This document shows, piece after piece, positions 5 to 18,842 of a stretch of DNA of 38,325 nucleotides. Where the stretch lies: IMG/VR virus record IMGVR_UViG_3300021364_000065, positions 1-38,325 of that record; one strand, written 5' to 3'. The position numbers were made by a program, and so were the translations under genes. The notes beneath the pieces were generated by a model that saw nothing but the letters and a program-made list of their open reading frames with translations, was not told the DNA's origin and did not search any database. This DNA comes from a virus. How positions within the stretch are numbered: the stretch's first letter is position 1; every line of letters begins with the position of its first letter.

Positions 5-229
5 TTATACATCGTATATCAACTTTACATCTTTACCAGGACCAGTTTTACTAGGTAAATCGCCATACTGCTCTATGTACCATTCAATAACTGCTTTATA
101 CCAATTTTGACTATTATGATGTGCCTTTTTGTTAAACTGCCAAATGTTATTATTTGTTGCTTGCATAGTGCTTAATGCTCTTGCACTTTCTTTTTGCAAC
201 TGTCTTACATCCAAATCATTTATATCCAA
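5..229 (-). CDS. Small protein of unknown function, last gene of the region E operon
   Basis: I do not recognise this 74-aa protein. It is hydrophilic, with an alpha-helical look and a Trp/Tyr-rich second half (NWYKAVIEWYIEQYGDLP), and has no signal peptide or membrane segment. The reading frame opens with TTG at 229, about 10 bases after an AAAAGG ribosome-binding sequence; the first in-frame ATG is at 166 and would give a 53-aa protein, so the start is uncertain. It overlaps the end of the methyltransferase-like gene by 14 bases, which suggests translational coupling and membership of the same transcript. The frame ends in TAA at 5-7, so it is complete. It could be a small partner of the enzymes upstream, but nothing in the sequence shows that. 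Confidence 0.6.
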   Translation of the reverse strand: MDINDLDVRQLQKESARALSTMQATNNNIWQFNKKAHHNSQNWYKAVIEWYIEQYGDLPSKTGPGKDVKLIYDV

Positions 230-1253
230 TTTTCATAAACCTTTTGTATTGAGATAATTGAAGTTCACCTTGATATAGAACTTTAGACATTGGTGCTTTA
301 TTGCTAAATTCTTGTAAATCTTTACTACAATTTACATGTTCTTCTACTTCAAAATAATCATTGCCTTGTAAAATTATTAATTGATCTTGTAATATATAAT
401 CATACCACTCTTCAAAGTTTTCAATGTGTTCTGTACTGGTATTTATAACTGTGTTAGGATATCCCCAAAGTGTTTCTGTTGTTCCATCTAATTTATTTAC
501 ATCATATATATGTTCGTCAAACATAATTTCAAATATGTCTTGCGTACTTGCTTTAAAACGCCAATCATCTAAAACCCATTTTTTATTAAATGTTTCAGCT
601 ATTTGCCAAACATCAGGATCAATATCAAAACTTACAATTTTATCAATTTGTAGTTTGCTTTCAAATAACATAGTTGCCAATGTAGCATACCAACCTGCAC
701 ACAAAAATACAGTTCCTAACTCTACATTTAAACTTTTTAAAGTATCAACTAACCAAATTTTACTTTTTAATTGTCCTCTACTAAAACAATCTTTATCAAA
801 TTCTATATTATTAGTAATTAAATCCTTTAATGCCTTTACAAAATATGTTTCGGTATTATCTTCTAGTAGTCTAAACATACTCCAAACATTGTCATCTAAA
901 ATTAATTTTTTTAAGTCTTCATTGTCTAATAATCTAAAAATACTATGAATATTATTTTCTGTAACTGCTTTACGCAAATCCTCATTGCCTGGCAATAATC
1001 TAAATAAACTGTGTAAATTATTTTCTAACATTGCTTTGCGTAAATCTTCTAGTTCTCCTACACAACGCTTGTTTTCAACAATCCTAAAAATACTATGTGC
1101 ATTTTTTTCTAAAACAGCTTTACGCAATTCTTCTTTATTACAAAGTTTAAATATACTAGGCAAATCTTGATCGATATATGCCCTTCGTAAGTCACTAAAT
1201 TTTTCATTATTATGCAATAATTCAAATCTATCTAATATTTCAAAAATTTCCAT
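216..1253 (-). CDS. Methyltransferase-like protein with five N-terminal tandem repeats
   Basis: 345 aa. Residues 20-132 hold five tandem copies of a 21-28-residue unit with the pattern (E/D)DLRKA-x-x-ENN-x-HSxFRLL, best kept in copies 3 and 4 (EDLRKAMLENNLHSLFRLL, EDLRKAVTENNIHSIFRLL). Residues about 160-345 resemble a class I SAM-dependent methyltransferase: a strand-turn segment VFLCAGWYATLA (182-193) in the place of the SAM-binding glycine loop, then VSFDIDPDVWQIAE (207-220), whose Asp residues fit the position that binds the SAM ribose. The glycine loop is poor, with one Gly, so activity is inferred. I chose ATG at 1253, preceded by AAAGGA, over a TTG one codon upstream. It overlaps the preceding glycosyltransferase-like gene by 14 bases. 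The repeats may form a helical binding surface; the substrate is unknown. Confidence 0.7.
   Translation of the reverse strand: MEIFEILDRFELLHNNEKFSDLRRAYIDQDLPSIFKLCNKEELRKAVLEKNAHSIFRIVENKRCVGELEDLRKAMLENNLHSLFRLLPGNEDLRKAVTENNIHSIFRLLDNEDLKKLILDDNVWSMFRLLEDNTETYFVKALKDLITNNIEFDKDCFSRGQLKSKIWLVDTLKSLNVELGTVFLCAGWYATLATMLFESKLQIDKIVSFDIDPDVWQIAETFNKKWVLDDWRFKASTQDIFEIMFDEHIYDVNKLDGTTETLWGYPNTVINTSTEHIENFEEWYDYILQDQLIILQGNDYFEVEEHVNCSKDLQEFSNKAPMSKVLYQGELQLSQYKRFMKIGYK
858..1196 (-). repeat. Five tandem coding repeats in the methyltransferase-like gene
   Basis: Five in-frame units of about 65-85 bases each encode the DLRKA..ENN.HSIFRLL motif. The similarity is also visible in the DNA, where the plus strand shows repeated versions of gctttacgcaaatc and tattttctaa. 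Copies 2-4 are closest to one another. Copy 1 and copy 5 have drifted, with SDLRRAYIDQD and EDLKKLILDDN in place of the core. This suggests expansion by duplication of the middle units. Boundaries are approximate. Confidence 0.75.
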
Positions 1254-2274
1254 CAAACTTTTCCTTTAACCAGTCAAAGTCATTGATTTTTTTCAATTCA
1301 TCTTTGTTGTTTCTATGTCTTGCACCATACGAAGCACCTGCTTTTGCACCTTTTAATGCATAGGTTCCATATTCGGGATTATTTTCAGTATATGTACACC
1401 ATGTTCGTAAACGTCTATTAGTTTCTTCGTCTTTTTGTCTATCAATTATTTTTGAACTTAATTTAACACACTCTCTAAAAGCACTTTTCCAAGTATTAAA
1501 TGGATCAGTGTTGAATGCTGTAATATTAGATATTTTATCCATTGCAACAAATTTATCACTTATACTTGTTGTCATATCAGGTTTATCAACATCCATTACA
1601 AGTGTTTTTTCGGTTGGAAAAAGTTTTACTCCACCATATCCATACACTAAACCATTAACTGGATTTAGACTACGCCATACATGCACTGCTTCTTTATTAT
1701 GATGTTCAGGAATATAATCAAAAGCAAAATGCTCCATTAATTGTGCATCACCGTCTATAATCCAAAACATTTCTGTTTCGCATAAACTCGCTGCCGCAAT
1801 ATGAGCTTGATGAATTCCTTTTATACCGTGAATACGTTTAACATCGGGAAACCGTTCTAATATACGTTCATAGTTTTCATCAGCATTAGGTTCATTGTAA
1901 CTTATAAAAACTTTATCAAAATCAGATACTACAGGCAAACTTGCTTGGATTTCAACAAACTTTTTGTTAATATAAAAACGTGCTTTAATTTCTCCAGGTC
2001 CGTGATGACTGTTTTTTGGCATTAATGCTACACCATCGTAAAATTCTCCATTTTGGAAAACGTGTGTATACGTATCATCATATTCGTCAACACTATAATC
2101 AAAATTAAAATTTTTATCAATTACTAGATTGTTGTATACAATCCATAACATCTTTGTTAAACTTTTTTGTTTAGCTTCTATTACAGAGTCGGCATATTTT
2201 GCAGTTGGAAACCGTTGTTTTAAATCTTTAAATAATTGTTCAGAAGGATTGCCTATATAAAAAATATCATACAT
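1240..2274 (-). CDS. Glycosyltransferase-like (GT-A) protein with internal duplication
   Basis: 344 aa. Residues about 120-344 match the 305-aa protein at 7042-7959: VFISYNEPNADENYERIL, KGIHQAHIAAAS, then MFWIIDGDAQLM with a DGD motif (D174, D176) in the place of the metal/nucleotide-sugar DxD of GT-A enzymes. Later shared signatures are NGLVYGYGGVKLFP and WKSAFRECVK. Residues 1-118 look like an older copy of the same unit: YDIFYIGNPSEQLFKDL, then RFPTAKYADSV, then MLWIVYNNLVID, where the acidic motif has been lost, followed by FNFDYSVDEYDDTYTHVF against FAFDYIPEHHNKEAVHVW. The frame extends upstream to 2430, but that part overlaps the divergent gene and lacks similarity, so I start at ATG 2274. 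The predicted promoter would start transcription almost exactly there. The family assignment is inferred from motifs; a transferase role is likely but unproven. Confidence 0.75.
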   Translation of the reverse strand: MYDIFYIGNPSEQLFKDLKQRFPTAKYADSVIEAKQKSLTKMLWIVYNNLVIDKNFNFDYSVDEYDDTYTHVFQNGEFYDGVALMPKNSHHGPGEIKARFYINKKFVEIQASLPVVSDFDKVFISYNEPNADENYERILERFPDVKRIHGIKGIHQAHIAAASLCETEMFWIIDGDAQLMEHFAFDYIPEHHNKEAVHVWRSLNPVNGLVYGYGGVKLFPTEKTLVMDVDKPDMTTSISDKFVAMDKISNITAFNTDPFNTWKSAFRECVKLSSKIIDRQKDEETNRRLRTWCTYTENNPEYGTYALKGAKAGASYGARHRNNKDELKKINDFDWLKEKFDGNF

Positions 2275-2280
2275 ACTATA

Positions 2281-2309
2281 ATTATATAGTAACTTAATCA
2301 TTAAGTCAA
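2281..2309 (-). promoter_or_regulatory. Sigma70-type promoter for the region E operon
   Basis: Read on the minus strand this is TTGACT, a 17-base spacer, then TATAAT, one base short of the full consensus. The predicted transcription start falls at about 2274, the A of the first ATG of the downstream gene. No purine-rich ribosome-binding sequence precedes that ATG, so the message would be leaderless or nearly so. Confidence 0.75.
2292..2306. promoter_or_regulatory. Perfect 7-1-7 inverted repeat, possible operator
   Basis: ACTTAAT-C-ATTAAGT is a perfect inverted repeat lying in the spacer of the minus-strand promoter and reaching into its -35 element. A dimeric repressor bound here would block that promoter, and the site also lies just upstream of the divergent late-type element. 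No regulator is identified, and AT-rich palindromes arise by chance fairly easily. Confidence 0.4.
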
Positions 2310-2319
2310 GAATAGAATA

Positions 2320-2327
2320 GATAAATA
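2320..2327 (+). promoter_or_regulatory. Late-type promoter element GATAAATA for the lone fibre gene
   Basis: GATAAATA followed by ACATA lies 17 bases before the ATG at 2345, with the ribosome-binding sequence GCGGAGGA (2333-2340) between them. It matches the T4 late element TATAAATA at 7 of 8 positions. The same element occurs at similar spacing before the structural genes starting at 14223 and 18811. The transcript leader would be only about 10-13 bases but would still include the ribosome-binding site. Confidence 0.6.
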
Positions 2328-2344
2328 ACATAGCGGAGGACGTT

Positions 2345-3808
2345 ATGACAGATTTTATACCAGGTGAAGCATATAGATTAGATGTTAAAGCTGCTGATGA
2401 AAAAATAATTGTAGACAGTTGGCAAAACAAAATTAGAGCAGATGTTGTTTCAGATGATGGAGCAATTCAAGTTGATGTTTCAACTGGAAAATTATACGGT
2501 CCTTTGATTGGCAATATTGAAGATGTAGACGGCAATGTTATTTTTAATTCTAATGCACAAGTTTTAAGAGGTGATATAGAAGGAAACGTATACGATTCTA
2601 CTGGTATGTCTAAATTAGTAGACGGAATGACAGGAAGAATTCTTGCTCCTTCACAAGGAAATATTATAGATTCTGCAGGTGAAGTGATTGTAGATACGTT
2701 TAATAAAACTATTACAGCAACTACATTTACAGGCGATTTATACGGTAATGTATACGGAAGTATTTCAAGCGACAGTGTTATATATGGAACATTCAGTGGT
2801 GATTTTAACGGCACTGCATATGGAGAATTTTTTGGAGAAAGCACAGGTGAACATACAGGTAATGTAATAGGCGATTTAACAGGTAATGTTACTGGTAATG
2901 TGGACGGTAATTTAACCGGTTTTCTATTAGGTGCTAATTTAGACACTAGCGAAGGTGCTCCAGAGATAGCAAAAATTACAAATTTAAATACAACTATTGA
3001 AAATCATCAATATAGTTTTTACGGTGGATTAGAACATCATCTTGCTGCTGATCCAGATGCGGTTGCAAATGGGCCAATTGTTATGCTAGGTGCTACAAGA
3101 GCAGATACTAGTGTTAGAGCACACTTGCATCATTACAATGGCCAAGAAATTATTACATTACACGATCCTATTGATCCAGACTGTGATACTGCACCTGCTA
3201 CTATTAGAGGAAATTTTGATGGTAACTTTATATACAGTGACGGAGAAACTGCGCAAGATGCATTAACTGTTAGTTCCCAAGGAACTGTGTTACACGCTGT
3301 TAATGGTATAGTAACAATTGGTGGTTATATTACAGATGACGTTGATTGCGATGTAAATATTTTTGCAGATGCTATTACTATTGAAACAAGTGCCGACGAA
3401 GATTTAATCAATGTAAAAAAACACGGCGGAACTATTACAAATAAAACAAATTTGTCTGCAGGAGATGCTATTGTTAGTGTTTATGGACAAGGATATAATG
3501 GAAGCGCATATGCCGATGCTGGTAGATTTGGACTTACTGCTGTTGGTACTCCTGACCCATCTGCTAATTATGTCAATACAGAATTTACTGTAAGTTTACC
3601 ATCTGTGTCACAAGGTAGTATATTTACAAATACTAACAAACTGTCATTTAATAACAGCGGTGTTTTATCAGTTCCTGTATTTAAAGCCAATGGACATACC
3701 TTTGCAACAAGAGATGCTTTAACTGCTGCTGCAGGAATGATAATTTTCAATACTAATAGTAATAAATTCCAAGGCTATACAGGAAGTGCTTGGGTAGATT
3801 TACATTAA
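2345..3808 (+). CDS. Fibre-like virion structural protein on the plus strand
   Basis: 487 aa. Residues about 170-200 carry short Gly-Asn repeats (GDLTGNVTGNVDGNLTG) typical of beta-rich shafts in marine T4-like phage fibres; the same motif occurs in the tail-collar fibre at 16155-18209. The N-terminal half is built from similar polar beta segments (GNIEDVDGNVIFNS, GDIEGNVYDS), and the C-terminus ends in a small AxGMIIFNTNSNKFQGYTG-type segment often seen at the end of such proteins. There is no signal peptide or enzyme motif. GGAGG precedes the ATG by 6 bases. It stands apart from the main structural block, on the other strand, between glycosyltransferase and ligase genes, behind its own late-type element. 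It is probably a variable tail or head fibre and a possible target of the neighbouring enzymes. Confidence 0.75.
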   Translation: MTDFIPGEAYRLDVKAADEKIIVDSWQNKIRADVVSDDGAIQVDVSTGKLYGPLIGNIEDVDGNVIFNSNAQVLRGDIEGNVYDSTGMSKLVDGMTGRILAPSQGNIIDSAGEVIVDTFNKTITATTFTGDLYGNVYGSISSDSVIYGTFSGDFNGTAYGEFFGESTGEHTGNVIGDLTGNVTGNVDGNLTGFLLGANLDTSEGAPEIAKITNLNTTIENHQYSFYGGLEHHLAADPDAVANGPIVMLGATRADTSVRAHLHHYNGQEIITLHDPIDPDCDTAPATIRGNFDGNFIYSDGETAQDALTVSSQGTVLHAVNGIVTIGGYITDDVDCDVNIFADAITIETSADEDLINVKKHGGTITNKTNLSAGDAIVSVYGQGYNGSAYADAGRFGLTAVGTPDPSANYVNTEFTVSLPSVSQGSIFTNTNKLSFNNSGVLSVPVFKANGHTFATRDALTAAAGMIIFNTNSNKFQGYTGSAWVDLH

Positions 3809-3817
3809 AAGTAAAGG

Positions 3818-3846
3818 TTGACTTACACTACAATTTGTTATATAGT
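3818..3846 (+). promoter_or_regulatory. Sigma70-type promoter for the region C operon
   Basis: TTGACT, a 17-base spacer, then TATAGT, starting ten bases after the stop codon of the fibre gene. The predicted start is near 3853, giving a leader of about 25 bases with AAAGGGA (3864-3870) before the ATG at 3878. Confidence 0.75.
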
Positions 3847-3852
3847 ATAACA
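3836..3852. promoter_or_regulatory. Perfect 7-3-7 inverted repeat over the -10 element, possible operator
   Basis: TGTTATA-TAG-TATAACA is a perfect inverted repeat that covers the -10 hexamer and reaches to the predicted transcription start. This is a common place for a repressor site. Part of the symmetry comes from the -10 sequence itself, so chance is a serious alternative. Confidence 0.35.
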
Positions 3853-3877
3853 TATTAATTTGGAAAGGGATATTAAT

Positions 3878-4111
3878 ATGTTATTAGAATTGGACCATTT
3901 AAAAAAAGCAAATGCTAATTACTTTAAACACGGAGCGATTGCTATCGCTTACAGTTTTTTAGGCTTGGCTGTTTTTATTATGGGAGTAATCCACGCTATT
4001 TTTCCATTCATGTTTGGATTTACACCATATAGATTAGCCAAAAAAATCACAGATGGTACGGAAAAGAATTTTCCTGCTTGTATTATTGAAGAGGATACAG
4101 ACAAAAAATGA
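3878..4111 (+). CDS. Small single-helix membrane protein, DUF6356-like
   Basis: 77 aa. A polar N-terminus (MLLELDHLKKANANYFKHGA) leads into one hydrophobic helix at about residues 20-46, then VIHAIFPFMFGFTP and a charged C-terminal tail. The pattern of His-(6-8)-aromatic, hydrophobic helix, HAxFPFxF and a small polar end fits the DUF6356 family of short membrane proteins, whose function is unknown. I chose ATG 3878, with AAAGGGA seven bases upstream, over a TTG at 3860 that would lie in the leader. Its last codons overlap the ligase start as ATGA, so the two are translationally coupled. It may hold the adenylating enzyme or its product at the membrane. That is inference from the pairing alone. 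Confidence 0.7.
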   Translation: MLLELDHLKKANANYFKHGAIAIAYSFLGLAVFIMGVIHAIFPFMFGFTPYRLAKKITDGTEKNFPACIIEEDTDKK

Positions 4112-5097
4112 TTTACATTGACGGTGTTGAATACTTAAAAAGTGAAAATGAGCATGTCAAAACCGCGGTTATTAAGTATCTTGATAACTGGAATATTACA
4201 GTTAGTACCAGCGGTACAACTGGTAAACCCAAAACATATACTCATTCATCTGATCTAATGAGGAAGATAGCAGAATATAACGCAGAATATTTCATGCTTG
4301 ATTCTAACAGTAGAATGTTAGCATTGTACAATCCAAGAGGCATTGGTTTCACGTCAATGAGTTTATATCCGTGTAGTGTTGCAAACTGCGATACCTATAT
4401 CGAAACAACAGTTGCATCACTGCCGGATCGAATACAAGAAGTACAACCAACAAATATGTTAATTCTTCCTAATGTTTGGAAAACTTGGCATAGACATAAA
4501 AAATGGAAAAACTTGGACTTGAGTTGTGTGAAACAAATGCAAGTAGGTAGTGATATTACTCCAAACGGTTTAATGGAAGATTTACGTGCAAAAGGAGCTC
4601 AACAAGTTAACACAGCTTATGGAAGCACAGAAGTACCTCCTATTATTATGAGTACAGAGCTCCAAGATGTTTACAAGTTTGATGATATCAATCCCAACAT
4701 TGATTTTAAATTTGTTGAACATGATGACGGTACAACTGAATTTTATTGCAAATACAAAGATCAATCTGAATGGTGGGACAGCGGCGATCTAGTTGAATTC
4801 AACAGTGCAGATGAATTTGCATTAAGTGGACGTAGATATAATGCATTTAAAATGGAAAACTGTGGAGACAGAGTTTATCCAGAACAGATTGAAAAAGTTG
4901 CTATCGAAAATGGAGCAAGTTTAGCATTGTGTAGAAAAGTGCATCATGAATGTGTTGTTTACTATACAGGAGATCTAGACGTAAAAAACTTTACAAAACA
5001 GCATCAATGTGCGTATGAAATTGTACCAAAAAAAGTTGATACTATCAAAGTAGACGATAACTTGCGTAAAATTGATAGGAATCAAGTGTTTGTATAG
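4108..5097 (+). CDS. Truncated adenylate-forming enzyme (AMP-binding ligase/synthetase)
   Basis: 329 aa, against about 500-550 for ordinary acyl-CoA synthetases. The core motifs of the ANL superfamily are present in order: the phosphate loop TVSTSGTTGKPK (31-42), NTAYGSTE (168-175), WWDSGDL (222-228), the hinge segment GRRYNAFKMENCGDRVYP (241-258) and the C-terminal LRKIDR with K321 at the catalytic-lysine position. The missing part is the N-terminal subdomain, about 150 residues, so the phosphate loop starts within 30 residues of the Met. Because all catalytic motifs survive, this looks like a functional minimal form rather than a decaying gene. The family activates a carboxylate as its acyl-AMP and usually passes it to CoA or a carrier thiol. 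The substrate cannot be read here; MenE-like ligases are relatively short relatives. It overlaps both neighbours in a three-gene operon. Confidence 0.85.
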   Translation: MIYIDGVEYLKSENEHVKTAVIKYLDNWNITVSTSGTTGKPKTYTHSSDLMRKIAEYNAEYFMLDSNSRMLALYNPRGIGFTSMSLYPCSVANCDTYIETTVASLPDRIQEVQPTNMLILPNVWKTWHRHKKWKNLDLSCVKQMQVGSDITPNGLMEDLRAKGAQQVNTAYGSTEVPPIIMSTELQDVYKFDDINPNIDFKFVEHDDGTTEFYCKYKDQSEWWDSGDLVEFNSADEFALSGRRYNAFKMENCGDRVYPEQIEKVAIENGASLALCRKVHHECVVYYTGDLDVKNFTKQHQCAYEIVPKKVDTIKVDDNLRKIDRNQVFV

Positions 5098-5704
5098 ATT
5101 AGAAATTTATGACGGAACACAAGATCTAGAAGACTGGTACGAAGGTGCTGCTGCTAGAGGCTTTTATAACAATCACAACAAAACAGTGCTTATCGATTAT
5201 ATCGATAGGCACGAAGATGCTACACTAATACTTTTGTATTACAAAGATCGTGTTATAGGAACAACTATAACACACAGTCTAAAACAATTAGGTATACTAG
5301 GAAAAAATGCACATCGTATTGCTGCACGTACAGCATTGCTTATTGAACGTGTAGACGATATACGTGGACATAAAGTACACAACAATGATCGTAGTCCAAT
5401 GAATCATCATACAAGTCAAATGCTTACACCTGCTTGTTTTTATTATTTAGGATTAGATAAACCTATGTTTGTTAGCACAAATAATTTAGAAACAGCAAGT
5501 CAACGAAAAGTGCATAGAACTTGGGCTAAAATTATGTCACGGCACGGATATTTAAAAGATCCTGTAGAATTAGAATACAAAGGTGCATTTCAAACTTTTT
5601 GGAAAGTTGATGTTGAACACTGGTTGAATGATTTATCTAAAGTGCAATGGCCCGAATCAAAAGAAGTACTAGACGTATTTGCTGCACAACTCAAAAAAGT
5701 CTGA
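5090..5704 (+). CDS. Conserved-looking phage protein of unknown function, possible acyltransferase
   Basis: 204 aa from TTG at 5090, which has AGGA nine bases upstream and overlaps the ligase stop by 8 bases; an earlier TTG at 5072 has no ribosome-binding site. No domain is certain. The middle, with strand-like ATLILLYYKDRVIGTTITH followed by a helix and then RTALLIERVDDIRGHKV, has the feel of a GNAT-type N-acyltransferase (strand 4, then the acetyl-CoA loop), but the R/Q-x-x-G-x-G/A loop is not clear. The C-terminal half is rich in His and Trp. If it were an acyltransferase, it would be a natural acceptor for the product of the ligase before it. The 3' end overlaps the convergent radical SAM gene by 36 bases. 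Confidence 0.6.
   Translation: MYRLEIYDGTQDLEDWYEGAAARGFYNNHNKTVLIDYIDRHEDATLILLYYKDRVIGTTITHSLKQLGILGKNAHRIAARTALLIERVDDIRGHKVHNNDRSPMNHHTSQMLTPACFYYLGLDKPMFVSTNNLETASQRKVHRTWAKIMSRHGYLKDPVELEYKGAFQTFWKVDVEHWLNDLSKVQWPESKEVLDVFAAQLKKV
5188..5210 (+). other. 10-bp hairpin inside a coding sequence
   Basis: GCTTATCGAT-TAT-ATCGATAGGC forms a 10-base-pair stem, with one T-G wobble and a 3-base loop, within the gene at 5090-5704. It encodes VLIDYIDRH in frame. It lacks a following T-run, so it is not a terminator. It could affect RNA stability or be incidental. Confidence 0.4.
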
Positions 5705-7042
5705 CATTTCTGGAAATACTTGTTTATGATCAACTCCACGTCTGCGTCCTTGTTCTTCAAAGAAGTTGTGGAAATCTCTACGTCCCTGTATAACTTTTTC
5801 TAACGGATATTCTGTTGTATCCATATAATCAACAACACGTCTAAACTTTTCATATTCAATAGTGCTAAATGCATCTTTGCGATTGTCATCTACATTTTCT
5901 TTTATAAACTGCAAATGGTCACGCATATAGCTCATGTAGTTGTTAGGCAAAATGTTGATATCATATTGCAACGGCTCTTTAAGGTGCGGTGTATCAAAAC
6001 CCAAACGTTGCCATCTGTGTGTTTCAACATCATTATATTTTGCACGCCATTCTAATATCTTTTCTAATAGTGTGCGGAATGTTGTTACACTGAATATGTT
6101 AAAGGTAATCATCAACACCATAGGTGCTTCACAATTACGCATAAAATAATCCAAGTTGCGTTCAAACACTTCAATGTCTAATCCGTCACGTATATACTCT
6201 GCACGTTTACCCCAAGTGTCAATACTTGTAAACATTTTGAAGCGTCTGATCTTGTTATTTGTTAACAAGTCATTTACACGGTTTGTAAACTTTTCTAACT
6301 GTTTTGGTTTGCCACCTAAATTGCTATTGCAGTTTAGTTCTAGTTCTGGTTTAGGATCTGCGTCCAACATATCAAACAGTTTGTATGTACTTTGTTGTAT
6401 TGTTGGCTCGCCGCCTGTAATTCGTAATATATGCAATTCTTTGCTTAATTCAGGCCACCATTTCCAAAAAGCATCTAAATATGGATTGTTTTCTTCTTCA
6501 AAAATTTGGAACCAGTCAATATCACATCTGTGATTTTTTACATTTGTGTAAGGTCCATGCTGTTTAATTTCTTGATAGTATCTACTACTGGCTTTTGGAT
6601 GACAATATCCACAACGAAAATTACACTCGTTACCAAAAGAAACTTCTAAATATTCTGGATTGACGTCAAACTCTGCACCACCTTCTTTTACAGCATTTAG
6701 CCTATGCTTGAAAAAAATAGTTTGATTACGTTGCTTTCTATCACTAACATAGTCTTTGCCAAGTGCTTCAATTTTCCAACAATAGTTACACCCAGCAGGT
6801 TGTTCACCACGCATCATAGCAGCACGTTCTTGTTTCTTTTGTGCTGTATTGTGTATTGCACTTGGATTTTCTAATAAGGGTGCTGTGTCAATCTTATGCG
6901 GAGCAGGGTGGTAACAACTGTGTGTTTCACCTGTTTGAAAATATATGTTTGCGTGATACCATTTGGCAAAACAAAATGTAGGAGATATTTCCTGCGTAAT
7001 TTTATCAATACGCTTGATTTCTTCGCTTTCGCTACGCTCCAT
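5669..7042 (-). CDS. Radical SAM enzyme with N-terminal twitch-like cysteine region
   Basis: 457 aa. The radical SAM cluster motif is C140-x3-C144-x2-C147 (NECNFRCGYCHPK), followed by ITGGEP (208-213), the SAM-binding GGE motif. Upstream are four more cysteines, C24, C43, C85 and C88 (FCFAKW, SCYHP, CNYCW), in a pattern like a SPASM/twitch auxiliary-cluster domain but at the N-terminus. This matches the class annotated as twitch domain-containing radical SAM proteins. Such enzymes use a 5'-deoxyadenosyl radical to modify peptides, sugars or other small molecules; the substrate here is unknown. It is the last gene of the operon starting at 10520. Its ATG shares one base with the preceding stop (TAATG), and its 3' end overlaps the convergent gene by 36 bases. 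Being joined to glycosyltransferases, a sugar or glycan target is my preferred inference. Confidence 0.85.
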   Translation of the reverse strand: MERSESEEIKRIDKITQEISPTFCFAKWYHANIYFQTGETHSCYHPAPHKIDTAPLLENPSAIHNTAQKKQERAAMMRGEQPAGCNYCWKIEALGKDYVSDRKQRNQTIFFKHRLNAVKEGGAEFDVNPEYLEVSFGNECNFRCGYCHPKASSRYYQEIKQHGPYTNVKNHRCDIDWFQIFEEENNPYLDAFWKWWPELSKELHILRITGGEPTIQQSTYKLFDMLDADPKPELELNCNSNLGGKPKQLEKFTNRVNDLLTNNKIRRFKMFTSIDTWGKRAEYIRDGLDIEVFERNLDYFMRNCEAPMVLMITFNIFSVTTFRTLLEKILEWRAKYNDVETHRWQRLGFDTPHLKEPLQYDINILPNNYMSYMRDHLQFIKENVDDNRKDAFSTIEYEKFRRVVDYMDTTEYPLEKVIQGRRDFHNFFEEQGRRRGVDHKQVFPEMSDFFELCSKYV

Positions 7043-7959
7043 TAATTTTCTCTATCTAAAAATTTTGTACTGTTGTCTCTAACAGGATTTTGATATACAC
7101 TTTTAAAGAATGCACTTTGCTGTGCATTTAAACATTCCTCTGCAATTGGAATATCTAATTCGTGTATTAATTTTGCACCAAGTTCTTCTGTTTGTTCTTC
7201 CATATCGGCAATGTCTTTATTGCTCCAATAGTCGTTTAGATATTCAAAATCACGTACATTTATATAATCCCAGTCAGTACACATTGTTTTGTACAAACCT
7301 TCTCTTGCACCGTGTATTGCCCAACGTCCGTTTTCTACATCAGCACCTACCATTAACCAAATGTATAATCTGTGCAAGTTTTTCCAGTGATTACGTTTAA
7401 ATCCTTCATAGTCTGGACGCACACCTTGATCTAGTGCCATTTTAACACCTTCACGGAAACCAGCACGCCATGCTTGTTGCGGAGTAGCATTATTATGAAT
7501 AGTGCTAAATGTACCGTTCATTTGAATGTATTGTGTATCCCAACAAAAGTCTACTTGTGCATGTGGATTATCCGACGGTGCATTTTCATGTGTACGCATG
7601 TTAAGCACATGTTGTTTAGGCCAACACTTTAGTCCACCATTTCCATAACTCAATCCATTAATAATATTTTTTGCAGTCCAACTGATAACTTTGTTTGTTA
7701 AATCTGTATTTTCATCAAAGTCAATAACTTGATTCAAAAAGTCATCATTAATAATATTATCAGCATCTACTGTGATAAATCTGTCAGTTGTAGATTTTTC
7801 TGCTGCTGCTTTATGAGCACTGTCGCTGCCTTTTACTCCGCTTACATGTTCAGCCCAAGGACATTTACTAACCAAATCTGCAAAGTTTTTTTCTGCATTT
7901 GGTTCATCATATGACAAGTATATAATATCGTAATCAACAACTCTAAATGTGTTACTCAT
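7042..7959 (-). CDS. Glycosyltransferase-like (GT-A) protein, single-copy paralogue
   Basis: 305 aa. YDIIYLSYDEPNAEKNFADL (10-29) is the strand-loop-helix start of a Rossmann-like GT-A fold, and FITVDADNIINDDFL (61-75) carries a DAD motif (D65, D67) at the usual metal-binding place. INGLSYGNGGLKCWP and AWRAGFREGVKMAL match the protein at 1240-2274, as does the C-terminal pattern of a Gly-Ala-Arg stretch (HGAREGLY against YGARHRNN). It lacks the N-terminal duplicated unit of that paralogue and has its own acidic C-terminal extension (NKDIADMEEQTEELGAKL). The gene overlaps both neighbours (8 bases and 1 base). It probably transfers a sugar from a nucleotide-sugar donor, but donor and acceptor are unknown and the family link rests on motifs only. 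Confidence 0.75.
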   Translation of the reverse strand: MSNTFRVVDYDIIYLSYDEPNAEKNFADLVSKCPWAEHVSGVKGSDSAHKAAAEKSTTDRFITVDADNIINDDFLNQVIDFDENTDLTNKVISWTAKNIINGLSYGNGGLKCWPKQHVLNMRTHENAPSDNPHAQVDFCWDTQYIQMNGTFSTIHNNATPQQAWRAGFREGVKMALDQGVRPDYEGFKRNHWKNLHRLYIWLMVGADVENGRWAIHGAREGLYKTMCTDWDYINVRDFEYLNDYWSNKDIADMEEQTEELGAKLIHELDIPIAEECLNAQQSAFFKSVYQNPVRDNSTKFLDREN

Positions 7960-8500
7960 TTACTTCCTCAAGATAGTACGAATCAAATCTACGTGTAGTA
8001 TACACAGAAATTGGTGTTCCGTCAAACTCAAAATCATCAGTAAACGACAAAAAATTTCCATCAGTAAATCTTATTAATTTGTAAAGCACATTTGGATCGT
8101 GTTTTTTTGTAATACTAAAATAATAGTTAGATAAATTTACTTTGATATTTTGTTCTTGCAAATCTAATTCAAATTTATCATCTAGCATAATATGCCAAGA
8201 TTTCGTTTTGTTATTTTTAGTAATAATTATTTGTCTTTCTGCAGGTTCTTTTGTGGGAATTTCGTATAAAAAACTCCACATAAGTTTGTCTTCGTCTATT
8301 TGTTTTTGATTTTTTATAATATATTTTTTTTCTATAAAATCAAATTCAACCTTATGTTCTAATAAACTTAATTTTCCCGAAATAAAATCTTCTACTTCAG
8401 AAAACTCCATTTCTAAATTTTTAAATCTATCATCTGGTTTATTTGAAATTTTATATATATTTCCATCACTATTAAAACAGACATATCTAATAATTTTCAT
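7952..8500 (-). CDS. Protein of unknown function in the glycosyltransferase operon
   Basis: 182 aa, not recognised. It is rich in beta-type segments and charged residues with no signal peptide, membrane helix or catalytic motif. The start (KIIRYVCFNSDGNIYKIS) and a later segment (YKLIRFTDGNFLSFTDDF) share an IRY/F-x-DGN pattern, suggesting two related small beta units. The ATG is one base from the stop of the glycosyltransferase upstream, and the end overlaps the next glycosyltransferase by 8 bases, so it is certainly co-transcribed with them. A structural accessory or an acceptor protein are both possible. Confidence 0.65.
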   Translation of the reverse strand: MKIIRYVCFNSDGNIYKISNKPDDRFKNLEMEFSEVEDFISGKLSLLEHKVEFDFIEKKYIIKNQKQIDEDKLMWSFLYEIPTKEPAERQIIITKNNKTKSWHIMLDDKFELDLQEQNIKVNLSNYYFSITKKHDPNVLYKLIRFTDGNFLSFTDDFEFDGTPISVYTTRRFDSYYLEEVNE

Positions 8501-8501
8501 T

Positions 8502-9344
8502 TTACAACCCTAAAACTTTTTCATATTTTTTCATAATTTCTAAACTAACAAAATCTTTTTCTGTATAATGAAAAATACCATTTTGTTGATAATTTCCTAT
8601 TTTCATTTTTAAATTATCGTCAATATATACACCAACTCTATCTTGCCATCTATATTGGAAATTTTCTTTCCAATTTTGTACTTTTGGCTTCATGTGAATA
8701 AAACTAGGATATTTTACTTTGCTATTTGTAATTAAACTTTCATTGTCCATTATAACACTTGCAATTGCTGCTGTAAGATCCATACTTGGTCCAGGCAAAT
8801 GTTTTAGCTGATTGTCAATTTGTTTATAAAATTGTTGCCAATTGTTTGTTATTATCTCTAACCAATTGTTAAATTCATGAGCATGATCGCTTTTTTTGAA
8901 CCAATGAAATCCGCTATATAAACTAGGTAAATTATTTTTAAAAAAATGTTTTCTGTAAAAACTATTTTTATTTACACATTCACCTCTATATGTGTATACA
9001 TTACTTGTATAAAATAAATCGTAATTCTTTAAGAATTTAAACCACGCTGACAAATCATCTAATATAAGCATATCAGTATCTATTACCACTGTTTCATTAT
9101 ACGGAATAGCATGATATATTTTCCAACGATTGCTTACTTTCCATTGTTCGTTTGTTGCATGATCGCCCCAAGGTATTTCTACAATATGATCAAAGAGAGG
9201 TTTGTACTTTGTAGGAACAGGATCATTGGTAATTAAACAAATATCACTGTTTTTATTTGTAGCTTTTATACTCATTGCTGCAAGACATGCTTGTCTAATA
9301 TAGTCAAAGTCACTATTTTGTGCAAGCATGGTAAAATTATTCAT
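8502..9344 (-). CDS. Glycosyltransferase-like protein (GT8-type GT-A fold), second copy
   Basis: 280 aa. The N-terminus (FTMLAQNSDFDYIRQACLAA, then SDICLITNDP) is a GT-A-type nucleotide-sugar fold, and NETVVIDTDMLILDD carries a DTD motif (D89, D91). The Met-Asp-Leu-Thr-Ala-Ala helix (SMDLTAAIASVIMDN) and a late FIHMKP segment are in the positions of the acceptor helix and late His seen in GT8-like enzymes. It is clearly related to the gene upstream (9337-10176), which shares VKQ/IRQA, a YDET/YNET-VxxDTD core and a late HM segment, so the two arose by duplication. I chose ATG 9344 over a TTG two codons earlier. GGAG lies 13 bases upstream, inside the preceding gene, which it overlaps by 8 bases. 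Sugar and acceptor are unknown. Confidence 0.78.
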   Translation of the reverse strand: MNNFTMLAQNSDFDYIRQACLAAMSIKATNKNSDICLITNDPVPTKYKPLFDHIVEIPWGDHATNEQWKVSNRWKIYHAIPYNETVVIDTDMLILDDLSAWFKFLKNYDLFYTSNVYTYRGECVNKNSFYRKHFFKNNLPSLYSGFHWFKKSDHAHEFNNWLEIITNNWQQFYKQIDNQLKHLPGPSMDLTAAIASVIMDNESLITNSKVKYPSFIHMKPKVQNWKENFQYRWQDRVGVYIDDNLKMKIGNYQQNGIFHYTEKDFVSLEIMKKYEKVLGL

Positions 9345-10176
9345 TGTCAATTATTCGCTCCAAACTAAATTTATTCATAATATGCAAATTAGTTCCTTTT
9401 GTCTTTACAGCAGTATATTCACCAAATCTATTAGTTTTTTGCACTAATATTTTTATTTCGTCATCAATTATGTCCACTAAAACATCTTTATCAATTGCGT
9501 AGAATTTTTTTCCAGGCAATAATCCAGCAAAATCACCTGTTTGATAACCATTCATAATATGTATAGCAATGCTAAATGCAAAATCATTTCTAAAGACAGT
9601 GGTTCTAAACTGATACATACTACGATAATGCATGTAATTTTTTTCTATATGTTGTAATAAATCAAAAAATATTTTTGTTTCAGCAGTTTTTCTAAAGAAA
9701 AATATAGTAGCCCAATAAAAATCTACACTTGTATCACTAACACGCAAAAATTCAGGTGTTCCGGTATGCGTTCCTATGTGTATTGCATCTTTATAAATTA
9801 AGAAATCTTTTTGCTGTAAGAAACAATTTTTTAAAATATCATTACAAATAATATAGTCTGTGTCCATTACAATTGTTTCGTCATAAGGACTTAAATTATA
9901 AGCATTTACACGATTACTATTATAAAATTTAGCAGTAACATCGTGTAAATCACCGTCGTGATATCTTTTGTTAGTTTCATTATAACTAACAGAATCATGA
10001 ATTATATTATCAAAAACATCTACATAATCTGGAAATTTATCATGTATGTTAATATTTGTAACAATACTAGTTGGTAAATTTAAATACTTTTTTATACGCT
10101 TTGCAAGGAAATATGCTTGTTTTACATAATTTAATGTGCCATTATTATTTGCAAAAAGCAAAACACCTTTATTCAT
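9337..10176 (-). CDS. Glycosyltransferase-like protein (GT8-type GT-A fold), first copy
   Basis: 279 aa. GVLLFANNNGTLNYVKQAYF (4-23) begins the fold; YDETIVMDTDYIICND (98-113) has the DTD motif (D105, D107) that would hold the metal and nucleotide sugar. The FRNDFAFSIAIHIMNG helix and C-terminal LHIMNKFS fit acceptor and late-His elements. An insert at about 128-150 (HIGTHTGTPEFLRVSDTSVD) differs from its paralogue at 8502-9344 and probably changes the substrate. The start ATG overlaps the preceding TGA (ATGA). Soluble, with no membrane segment. The family is inferred from motifs. Confidence 0.78.
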   Translation of the reverse strand: MNKGVLLFANNNGTLNYVKQAYFLAKRIKKYLNLPTSIVTNINIHDKFPDYVDVFDNIIHDSVSYNETNKRYHDGDLHDVTAKFYNSNRVNAYNLSPYDETIVMDTDYIICNDILKNCFLQQKDFLIYKDAIHIGTHTGTPEFLRVSDTSVDFYWATIFFFRKTAETKIFFDLLQHIEKNYMHYRSMYQFRTTVFRNDFAFSIAIHIMNGYQTGDFAGLLPGKKFYAIDKDVLVDIIDDEIKILVQKTNRFGEYTAVKTKGTNLHIMNKFSLERIIDNE

Positions 10177-10520
10177 AGATCAACAATACTTTCAACTGTC
10201 CGGTTTTTCTTTAACTTTGTATACTCATTTAAGTATTTGTTAGAAGATTCAAAATAGGTTGTATAGATTTCTGTAGAAAAATCTTTTAAATTTTCAATCA
10301 TAATTGGTAAGTCATTATCATCAATCAAAATGGTGCTATCTTGTTCTAGAGTGACTAAACTTTGACAAAAACTTACAAGCTCTTTTGTAACTGTAAATTG
10401 TCCACCATTGTAATAATAAACAAGATTTTCTTTATACTGTTCTTTTAACAATCTCTTTTGATTGTTAAGAGTAATCATATAATTACTGTGATCTAATGCT
10501 TTTTGAAGACGTTCGTCCAT
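10173..10520 (-). CDS. Small protein of unknown function, first gene of the glycosyltransferase operon
   Basis: 115 aa, not recognised. It is hydrophilic and looks alpha-helical, with one strand-like stretch (YKENLVYYYNGGQFTVTKEL) and an acidic segment (DSTILIDDNDLP). The pattern could be a small structural or coiled-coil adaptor. The start ATG at 10520 has a strong ribosome-binding sequence (GGAGG, 10526-10530) and follows the sigma70-type promoter at 10543-10571, with a leader of about 16 bases. It is translationally coupled to the first glycosyltransferase by an ATGA overlap. Confidence 0.7.
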   Translation of the reverse strand: MDERLQKALDHSNYMITLNNQKRLLKEQYKENLVYYYNGGQFTVTKELVSFCQSLVTLEQDSTILIDDNDLPIMIENLKDFSTEIYTTYFESSNKYLNEYTKLKKNRTVESIVDL

Positions 10521-10542: not shown

Positions 10543-10571
10543 AGTATATATTAAAAAAACTGTTGTGTCAA
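10543..10571 (-). promoter_or_regulatory. Sigma70-type promoter for the six-gene glycosyltransferase/radical SAM operon
   Basis: Read on the minus strand: TTGACA, exactly 17 bases, TATACT. The -35 element follows the TAA stop of the fibre-like gene upstream with no gap (TAATTGACA). The predicted start is near 10536. This separates the operon from the late-controlled structural block on the same strand. Confidence 0.8.
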
Positions 10572-11732
10572 TTATAAACTTGAATTTACAACACCTGTCG
10601 GTACTGGTAAAACAATGCCATTATATGTTACACTGTTATAAACAAATGTACTATTTGGTGTTTTGGTGTATACTGTGCTGTTGATTGTTGCTGTTACGCT
10701 TTCATCAACCCTCTGACCAGGATCGCTTTCTCCTGGATAACCAGATTGTCCACTTGTACCAAGATCTCCGTCATCAAATTCTATTTTAAATTGTAGTGCT
10801 GTTGCACTAGAAAATGCACTATTGGTTCTAGCATAAATTCTAAAAAAGTTATCATCATAAATTTCTGCTATTGGTGTTTGTCCAGGATTACCACCTGCTC
10901 TGCCACCACCTTGTTTTTCAAAAACCTTTGTCCAAGTTGTACCACTGCCTATTGTTGGTGCATCATATCCAGTGCCACTTCCTGGACTAATTGCTTCGCA
11001 AACCCAATCAGTTTGATTTCGGCGTCTAAATCTTACAGTTCCGCTGTCGCTTAAAACTTGTGCCCAATCCCAATCCTTACTGTACAAAGTACCTGTGGTA
11101 CCACCTGTAGCACTAGCTTGAAAAAGTATTTCTCCACCAGCGGCTAAAAAATATATTAGATTATTGTGACTTCCAAAATTAACTGTCACTTCGTGTGTAA
11201 TAACTTTTACAGAATCTGCACTACCGCCCCAATTGGCAGTTCTAGTGCTTGCTGTACTGGCTCCCCCACTTGTTTCAAGAGGCTCTAGTCCAGTAAAACT
11301 ACTATTTGGAAATTCAGTGCTTGCATGGTTGAATGCTAAAACATCATCTGCAATAGTATCTAAATCTACTTTGTGCTGCCAGGCAATAGGATCTCTATTT
11401 GTAAAATCTGCATCATTCGGATATGTCAATTTACCTTCAAATTCTGTTGGTGAAATTTCAGCTGATGATGCACCATAACAATGGTTATAACCTGCTTGCA
11501 AATCAAGCCACAGATTAAAATGCTGTTGTTCTGTAACAGTATCACTTACACCAGGTGTACTACCTCCAACAACATTACCACTAGTAAATGATCTACCATA
11601 CCCACCAGATGTTGTCAATGGCGTGGTTAACGAACCATAATCATTATATACACTAACATTACCCAATCGACCTGCAATAAGTTCTCTAATTGAATTATAA
11701 TGTTGTGCTAATATTGGGGTATTTTGAGCCAT
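10572..11732 (-). CDS. Virion structural protein, fibre-like, paralogue of the next gene upstream
   Basis: 386 aa. A short N-terminal helix region (ILAQHYNSIRELIAGRLG) is followed by low-complexity Gly/Ser/Thr segments and beta-rich domains. It shares several blocks with the 301-aa protein upstream: a WGG start, a VTVNFGSHNN segment, an AAGGEILFQA block, DWAQVLSDSGTVRFRR, and a late FKIEFDDGDLGTSG. No enzyme motifs or signal peptide. AAAGGA lies seven bases before the ATG. Position at the end of the structural block and composition suggest a tail-fibre or baseplate-associated protein; the exact place in the virion is unknown. It has its own sigma70-like promoter, unlike the other structural genes. 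Confidence 0.7.
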   Translation of the reverse strand: MAQNTPILAQHYNSIRELIAGRLGNVSVYNDYGSLTTPLTTSGGYGRSFTSGNVVGGSTPGVSDTVTEQQHFNLWLDLQAGYNHCYGASSAEISPTEFEGKLTYPNDADFTNRDPIAWQHKVDLDTIADDVLAFNHASTEFPNSSFTGLEPLETSGGASTASTRTANWGGSADSVKVITHEVTVNFGSHNNLIYFLAAGGEILFQASATGGTTGTLYSKDWDWAQVLSDSGTVRFRRRNQTDWVCEAISPGSGTGYDAPTIGSGTTWTKVFEKQGGGRAGGNPGQTPIAEIYDDNFFRIYARTNSAFSSATALQFKIEFDDGDLGTSGQSGYPGESDPGQRVDESVTATINSTVYTKTPNSTFVYNSVTYNGIVLPVPTGVVNSSL

Positions 11733-11778: not shown

Positions 11779-12684
11779 TTACAAATCACTTGTTTTTGCG
11801 TAACTAGGCGCATCATTTTCCACATAACTACCTGCTGCTCTAAAATGAACTATAGAACTTGTTAAAAATCCAGCTACATATTCATCTGCTCCACCTGTTC
11901 CTACATCTTGATCCCAAAAAACAATGTTAAAAGTAATTGTTGAAGAATTTTTTTGCTTCGCTTCTATATACCATTGATTTTCTGAATAAGTTCCTGTTGG
12001 ATCGCCTTCTTTTAAATATATTTTTTGAAATGTCTCTGTTAAATCTTCATTACCTATTGCGTAAGCTGTTCCACTTCCTGTAGTAACAGTAGCAGCTCTA
12101 CCAAATTGTATCTGTCCAGAGTTGGATAACATAGTTTGCCAGTCTTGATTTTTTGCTAAATTTGTATCAGCAGGAACATTTGATATATCTAAAAAGGCTT
12201 CAAATCTTATTTGACCGCCAGCATTAAAAAATCCTCTTCTTTCGTTAGAATTTTGAAAAGAAACATCTACAGTATGGTTAATCTGTTGTGGTAATGATGT
12301 GCCACCCCACGGTGCTGTTGCACCATTTTTTTCACTGTTTGCTCCGGAAACCTCTGTGGTAGATTGAGTTAGATCTATAATAAATCTATCTGCTTCAACT
12401 TCTGCAATTAAAGTTTCGTACGCAGCATACAAAGCTTCAGTAATTTCATCATCGGTTGTGACTGTAATAACAGTTGTAGGTTCTCTGCCATTAATGTGCG
12501 TATATACTTTACCAAAATCTATACGCAAATCATTCATATGATCAGCTCTAATTGTTGTACCTATAGGTTGTGGCGAAGAATTTACATTTTGGTTATATCC
12601 TTTATCTCCAGAACCTACTCCTAAAAGTGCTGCTATTCTGCCTTGTAATTCATTATATCTAGCTGCTGAAATTATTTCTGCCAT
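11779..12684 (-). CDS. Virion structural protein, fibre-like, paralogue of the next gene downstream
   Basis: 301 aa. The N-terminus (IISAARYNELQGRIAALLG) is a short amphipathic helix like that of its downstream paralogue. Further shared blocks are HTVDVSFQNSNERRGFF, NAGGQIRFEAFL, WQTMLSNSGQIQFGR and FNIVFWDQDVGTGG. It lacks the first Gly/Ser-rich stretch of the longer paralogue. Composition is beta-rich and polar, as in tail-fibre and baseplate decoration proteins. AGGAGA precedes the ATG by about seven bases. Its exact place in the virion is unknown; the pair likely arose by tandem duplication. Confidence 0.7.
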   Translation of the reverse strand: MAEIISAARYNELQGRIAALLGVGSGDKGYNQNVNSSPQPIGTTIRADHMNDLRIDFGKVYTHINGREPTTVITVTTDDEITEALYAAYETLIAEVEADRFIIDLTQSTTEVSGANSEKNGATAPWGGTSLPQQINHTVDVSFQNSNERRGFFNAGGQIRFEAFLDISNVPADTNLAKNQDWQTMLSNSGQIQFGRAATVTTGSGTAYAIGNEDLTETFQKIYLKEGDPTGTYSENQWYIEAKQKNSSTITFNIVFWDQDVGTGGADEYVAGFLTSSIVHFRAAGSYVENDAPSYAKTSDL

Positions 12685-18834: not shown

Positions 18835-18842
18835 TATTTATC
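18835..18842 (-). promoter_or_regulatory. Late-type promoter element GATAAATA overlapping a stop codon
   Basis: Read on the minus strand: GATAAATA then CAATATAGG, 23 bases before the ATG at 18811. The TAA stop of the 4645-aa gene is part of the element. The leader contains AGGAACGGA. It is identical over 8 bases to the elements at 2320 and 14255. Confidence 0.6.

Follow-up and report, generated by a model that had tools for sequence, protein, structure and literature searches.

According to the available part of PMC7029224, pelagimyophages and cyanomyophages carry a host recognition cluster (HRC), a variable island in the fibre region with glycosyltransferases, among which GT8 enzymes are commonest, and some radical S-adenosylmethionine (SAM) cassettes. 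The available part of PMC5332604 describes 12 radical SAM genes in the T4-like phage TARA_ERS488813_N000010 and discusses them as Fe-S cluster metabolism, and radical SAM and glycosyltransferase genes are enriched in Tasman Sea phages (PMC7150976). The mosaic adhesive trimer (MAT) fibres of Bdellovibrio are phage-fibre-like adhesins in the Bdellovibrionota (PMC10769870). Here we analyse a locus between positions 5 and 10520 of IMG/VR virus record IMGVR_UViG_3300021364_000065, the whole 38,325-nucleotide stretch being called the window; the genes in and beside the locus are lettered in order of position. Its core genes are kept together in phage relatives and are shared almost exclusively with one phylum of predatory bacteria, the Bdellovibrionota. 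We tentatively read them as part of a pathway that would build and tailor a glycoconjugate, most likely on proteins of the N/O family or on neighbouring fibres.

To establish which genes belong together, we mapped 89 relatives' loci carrying H, D and C, which overlap heavily and of which 34 are distinct. Wherever the contig reaches, M-L-K-J-I-H and C-B-A keep a constant order and orientation, and this holds for nearly all 89. G is nearly always present: in 88/89 loci it separates H from D, on either strand. F was detected in 49/89 loci and E in 16/89; other relatives have in the E/F slot a TauD dioxygenase, a fatty acid desaturase, or F accompanied by a flavin halogenase. From the constant order of the core and the variable content of the slot, it follows that the core genes are a unit and E/F an exchangeable cassette. 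An initial annotation, made from the letters of the window, had treated all of these genes as one linked set; checked for co-occurrence in relatives, this holds for the two core blocks but not for E and F, which are optional and exchanged. All 10 halogenase loci also carry F; four of them belong to another type of virus, where no radical SAM island was seen. Flavin halogenases (PF04820) adjoin F at L053:11954-13447, L013:8325-10001 and L015:8326-10008. The halogenase/AMP-ligase pair was considered as a fibre-linked module, and this was dropped when the fibre-size open reading frames (ORFs) 5′ of F in L013 and L015 turned out to be the halogenase.

Comparison of divergence across the 34 distinct loci separates the cassette from its neighbours. 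Divergence of D tracks that of N (rho 0.93), L (0.87) and H (0.85), and N also tracks L (0.91) and H (0.88), positive correlations that are confounded by vertical descent. Divergence of G tracks nothing well (rho 0.16-0.47; 0.40 against D). Judged by these poor correlations, the acyl cassette is exchanged independently of D, which speaks against a role of E-F-G devoted to modifying the adjacent fibre and weakens the idea that D is its target.

The four glycosyltransferase-like proteins of two families named in the initial annotation are borne out as a GT2-like pair, C (1240-2274) and I (7042-7959), and a GT8-like pair, K (8502-9350) and L (9337-10176), all on the minus strand. C and I are paralogues with ~30% identity and are tentatively assigned as divergent GT-A enzymes. 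For an AlphaFold2 model of I (pLDDT 88), the nearest Protein Data Bank (PDB) structures are the GT2 enzymes WrtF, SunS and TarP, with Foldseek probabilities mostly of 0.9-1.0 yet TM scores of only ~0.3. Against PF00535, I and C reach 15.7 bits, under the cut-off, and a PDB profile search gave no useful match. The K/L profile matches glycogenin at E=2e-4 over ~100 residues and contains a DxD (DTD) motif; there is no Pfam GT8 match. Glycogenin is a protein glucosyltransferase. H (5669-7042, minus strand), the most conserved gene of the locus, is indeed the twitch-domain radical SAM enzyme with an auxiliary-cluster region that had been recognized: it scores 298 bits against an NF033640 cut-off of 170 and retains CNFRCGYC (the CxxxCxxC core) and four N-terminal auxiliary cysteines of the twitch set, the second Cys of a CC pair being Tyr.

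The adenylating enzyme and the DUF6356 protein likewise exceed their Pfam cut-offs. F (4108-5097, plus strand) is a short AMP-binding acyl-activating enzyme (PF00501, 49.8 bits against 29.9) which has the STSGTTGKPK and YGSTE motifs and is missing the usual N-terminal ~150 residues; E (3878-4111, plus strand) is a small membrane protein (36.4 bits against 24.4). Between F and H lies a gene omitted from the initial annotation, G (5072-5704, plus strand), a GNAT-fold acyltransferase resembling FeeM/BjaI. Its AlphaFold2 model (pLDDT 87.6) has 48 PDB matches at E<=1e-3, the top ones being GNAT enzymes; no Pfam match is above cut-off and a PDB profile search gave no useful match. B (216-1253, minus strand) looks methyltransferase-like by eye, as had been noted, but matches no profile in Pfam, NCBIfam or PDB and is not counted here among class I methyltransferases; its C-terminal domain is conserved in phages and Bdellovibrionota. 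The ~22-aa repeats at the N terminus of B differ in copy number among relatives (e.g. L102:12729-14045) and are absent from bacterial homologues. All genes listed in the initial annotation are present, although comparison with relatives puts the start of C at 2274 rather than 2430 and that of E at 3878.

The locus does not end where it was first thought to. The initial annotation confined the set to positions 5-10520, but of the relatives with at least 3 kb of sequence past A, 44/44 carry further radical SAM-family genes, with 9-20 radical SAM ORFs per island across 14-40 kb in eight contigs. The window genes would thus form the right-hand edge of a 14-40 kb island, one that recurs in hundreds of marine giant-phage fragments and is flanked on one side by a giant structural protein of 4645 aa. 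Radical SAM genes of the island comprise the twitch family of H (f0), two more PF04055 families (f1 and f3) and B12-binding enzymes; most f0 members are above the NF033640 cut-off, paralogues within one genome have ~22% identity, and viral contigs of 202-328 kb contain 10-17 NF033640 matches. Alongside them are UDP-glucose dehydrogenase, capsule-type (Caps_synth) and DxD (Gly_transf_sug) glycosyltransferases, methyltransferases, Asp/Asn hydroxylases, an Asn-synthase-like protein and weak pyridoxal phosphate (PLP)-decarboxylase-like genes. In a second, wider viral set retrieved with the f0 profile, B and C lie near a 466-aa radical SAM gene in most loci. L152, L158 and L159, titled as Neisseriaceae, Gammaproteobacteria and Rickettsiales metagenome-assembled genomes, were rejected as bacteria: they carry A_74, the 74-aa product of A, along with island genes, look like misbinned phage contigs and were treated as phage. 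At the far edge of the island, L145:6175-8568 encodes a subtilase plus cupredoxin-domain protein, which adjoins a protein with a major-tropism-determinant N-terminal domain.

Counterparts of these genes were found in bacteria. When the f0 alignment was scanned against 84,980 species genomes, mainly Bdellovibrionota were returned, with 58-63% identity for the 466-aa radical SAM protein in loci without phage markers. The Bdellovibrionota genomes examined contain 10-37 NF033640 proteins each, and the cut-off was passed in 73/241 of those sampled; G260, with 50 first-look candidates, is the sample maximum. Bacterial clusters bring together f0, f1, f3, the C/I-type glycosyltransferase (f4) and B (f8), with f4 directly before f8 as C is before B in the phage. 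The f4 gene occurs in 15/241 Bdellovibrionota genomes; it was found in 0/399 and 0/248 genomes of the phyla of L178 and L220, zeros that come without an internal positive control. A tree of f4 pairs the C-type phage clade and the I-type phage clade with separate bacterial sister groups (support 0.95 and 1.0). The f0 proteins of phages are scattered over 29 clades, with bacterial clades between them. Among 50 unassigned genes in five bacterial clusters, 7 are GT2, and UDPGP, PMT_2 and QueC-like proteins are also there. No polyketide synthase (PKS), nonribosomal peptide synthetase (NRPS) or carrier protein is among the families listed in the island tallies, which for the bacterial set cover the first 25 of 39. 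Because the core genes are shared, an unusual sugar decoration of one kind is probably made by both phage and Bdellovibrionota, and it is a reasonable idea that these phages may infect Bdellovibrionota.

One bacterial chromosome extends the resemblance to the other block. G032:C21, a 140 kb Bdellovibrionota contig of 42-45% GC, has genes like N/O, M, L and K, an unassigned 163-aa ORF and I in the order of the window; gp6, gp25 and the giant protein of the window have no match on it. The N/O profile included the G032 sequence, inflating its E-value there; phage-only profiles match G032 at E=5e-27 and 9e-15. The 163-aa ORF is a counterpart of J by position only, homology of J in G032 not being detectable by profile. 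N/O- and K/L-type genes were found in G032 alone among the 241 Bdellovibrionota genomes. N (10572-11732) and O (11779-12684), both on the minus strand, belong to one beta-rich family, for which a PDB profile search gave no useful match; a homologue of O lies directly before M in that chromosome. Because G032:C21 keeps an N/O-like gene with M, L, K and I, the family is a candidate partner or acceptor of the glycosyltransferase operon.

The promoters of the locus fall into two classes that are kept in relatives. Sigma70-type sites precede C (2309-2281, minus strand, 6-7 nt from the ATG), E-F-G (TTGACT-17-TATAGT, 3818-3846, plus strand) and the M operon (TTGACA-17-TATACT, 10543-10571, minus strand, conserved in relatives), and I has a conserved sigma70 promoter of its own. 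Fibre gene D is preceded by the late-type element GATAAATA (2320-2327, plus strand), back to back with the C promoter. Counting only sites with at least 11/12 matches, a threshold that ~0% of shuffled sequences reach, 74% of distinct relatives have a sigma70 site 5′ of M, 80% have one 5′ of I, 56% 5′ of C and 46% 5′ of F. ATAAATA occurs 5′ of D in 95% of 41 distinct relatives and 5′ of the structural gene P in 86% of 35. The T4 late promoter TATAAATA was tried as well and was not enriched (5 found, 9.5 expected); the genuine late-type element, occurring where expected relative to its genes, is ATAAATA/GATAAATA, which stands at defined positions. These data support, at the level of conserved motifs, a sigma70-type control of the enzymes separate from the late-type control of D. 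The contrast drawn in the initial annotation between sigma70-type operons and late-type structural genes therefore stands as two classes but is not clean, since the structural-looking N also has a sigma70-type site (11778-11750, minus strand), as it does in 50% of relatives. The proposed layout of three operons around a lone fibre gene needs a similar adjustment: D-E-F-G share a strand, yet the promoter of D is late-type and that of E sigma70-type. The divergent pair of C and D promoters occupies 2274-2309 (minus) and 2320-2327 (plus). Since the gap of 6-7 nt between the C promoter and its ATG, the same in the window and in relatives, is so short, it suggests that the C message is leaderless.

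In the glycoconjugate pathway, which we regard as possible but short of probable, K and L together with C and I would assemble a short glycan. Twitch radical SAM enzymes (H, among the 9-20 radical SAM genes per island in relatives), B and other oxidoreductases would modify its sugars, and the exchangeable F-G cassette of acyl-AMP ligase and GNAT would supply a variable acyl cap, accompanied in other genomes by a halogenase, dioxygenase or desaturase. With host-type sigma70 promoters, the enzymes would be made earlier than the late fibre genes or without regard to them. The acceptor would most likely be a phage protein, either the N/O family directly 5′ of M-L-K-J-I-H or the neighbouring fibres. 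The suggestion of the initial annotation that the genes build and transfer an unusual modified group fits the enzymes of the wider island. Several points weigh against going this far. What the data show is gene content, linkage, two promoter classes, family or fold assignments for the glycosyltransferase, radical SAM, GNAT and AMP-ligase proteins, and sharing between phage and Bdellovibrionota; the glycan nature of the product, the acceptor and the order of the steps are what we infer. Peptides are common substrates of twitch/SPASM radical SAM enzymes, which makes a peptide-type product possible. The GT-A assignment of C and I is a low-TM fold match to a predicted model, B, J and M match no recognised family, and Pfam gives no match for most of the small genes in the islands. 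As the window ends at A, its own island is presumed from relatives. The N/O acceptor idea draws on a single genome among the bacteria (1/241) and on correlations that common descent confounds. Finally, sigma70-type promoters are no proof that the enzymes are expressed early.

Several of the same observations could be explained if the enzymes remodelled host-surface polysaccharide during infection, for superinfection exclusion or receptor masking, the main alternative, which we consider rather unlikely. Sigma70 promoters on the enzymes alongside a late-type element on D would suit it, as would the independent variation of G and D, the nucleotide-sugar and capsule-type enzymes of the islands, and the bacterial versions standing beside GT2s; sharing of the pathway with Bdellovibrionota fits too, if these are the hosts. 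O-chain modification has been proposed for the glycosyltransferases of the pelagimyophage HRC in the available part of PMC7029224. Set against this, the families listed in scans of the islands include no gene for a lipid carrier, a flippase, a polymerase or export, the cost of 14-40 kb is high for exclusion, and the linkage with N/O is left unexplained. An expanded form of the glycoconjugate reading can also be considered, in which a system of up to 20 radical SAM enzymes (twitch, plain and B12-binding) and two glycosyltransferase families would decorate shared beta-rich surface proteins on jumbo virions and on the Bdellovibrionota cell surface, the phages probably infecting Bdellovibrionota; taken as a whole, we judge this rather improbable.

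The composition of the islands could instead suggest a natural-product-like cluster whose product, a small molecule or a modified peptide, would diffuse or be borne by the virion. Multiple radical SAM enzymes, AMP ligase, GNAT, halogenase, dioxygenases and desaturase would be expected there, every halogenase locus also has the AMP ligase, Asn-synthase-like and weak PLP-decarboxylase-like genes are present, and the nearest PDB entry to the radical SAM profile is SkfB, a peptide maturase. We think it quite improbable, however, because no PKS/NRPS or carrier protein is among the families listed and no precursor peptide could be recognised, whereas glycosyltransferases and nucleotide-sugar enzymes recur. 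A, the only invariant small protein, is conserved over its full length and absent from the inspected bacterial clusters. Least credible, and in our view very improbable, is that the E-F-G cassette acylates fibre D independently of the radical SAM island. Adjacency of D-E-F-G on one strand and the near-constant position of G between H and D favour it, but G diverges without regard to D whereas D tracks N and H, the promoter classes of D and E differ, and in other viruses F adjoins a halogenase with no radical SAM island.

Of the remaining genes of the locus, D (2345-3808, plus strand) has Gly/Asn/Thr-rich repeats and is a putative fibre protein on the strength of composition, position and a weak PHROG match. 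M (10173-10520, 115 aa) opens the M-L-K-J-I-H operon and has a bacterial homologue at E=2e-23, and J (7952-8500, 182 aa) is invariably between I and K; both are on the minus strand, as is A (5-229), which is kept in relatives of this clade and, within the searches made, is phage-only. The window itself most likely comes from the genome of a jumbo myophage of the sea, as indicated by the nearest relatives of its gp6-like wedge protein, the jumbo phages Phosso, Atu_ph07 and SCTP-2 and the 121Q group (34-36% identity). PMC7029224 had suggested that the phage might be a pelagimyophage; this was given up after the gp6 search, no Pelagibacter phage being among the organisms listed. Megablast of the region against cultured phages gave no match, F and I are absent by tblastn from the cultured phages in the collection, and H and the 466-aa radical SAM protein have only weak matches among them, in Vibrio phages K566/K567. 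Relatives in IMG/VR number at least 428 for H and 23 for F. The 4645-aa structural protein is a single open reading frame at 18838-32775.

Radical SAM enzymes perform chemistry beyond that of ordinary enzymes. Up to 20 of them in one island of conserved order, shared with Bdellovibrionota, would point to costly, selected chemistry at a phage-host or predator-prey surface. The results offer a concrete gene set for testing (N/O, M-L-K-J-I-H, C-B and F-G) and many uncharacterised enzymes that occur in one context. They also name a phylum in which the hosts of a common group of marine jumbo phages may be sought.

We found no account in the open-licence literature of the conserved glycosyltransferase-radical SAM unit, its exchangeable acyl/halogenase cassette or the Bdellovibrionota link. 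VirX1 is a marine viral flavin halogenase of a cyanophage. Relatives of the locus likewise carry a PF04820 halogenase, there beside F, but the window has no halogenase, and that of the relatives is tied to an AMP ligase and GNAT cassette by fibre genes. The HRC, as presented in the available part of PMC7029224, is similar in being a large island among tail-fibre genes with glycosyltransferases and radical SAM genes. It differs in that the baseplate here points to jumbo phages rather than to the pelagimyophage lineage, and in being nonsyntenic, whereas here M-L-K-J-I-H and C-B-A are rigidly kept and islands contain 9-20 radical SAM genes; that part of the source contains no link to Bdellovibrionota. 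TARA_ERS488813_N000010, a T4-like genome from the sea, is likewise rich in radical SAM genes, and the available part of its report describes no pathway, synteny or bacterial counterpart. MAT fibres offer a parallel to the N/O-like protein of Bdellovibrionota, a likeness that does not include a tie to radical SAM and glycosyltransferase clusters. NF033640 (N_Twi_rSAM) is a family without an assigned function, and in these islands it appears as a multi-paralogue set tied to two glycosyltransferase families and B.

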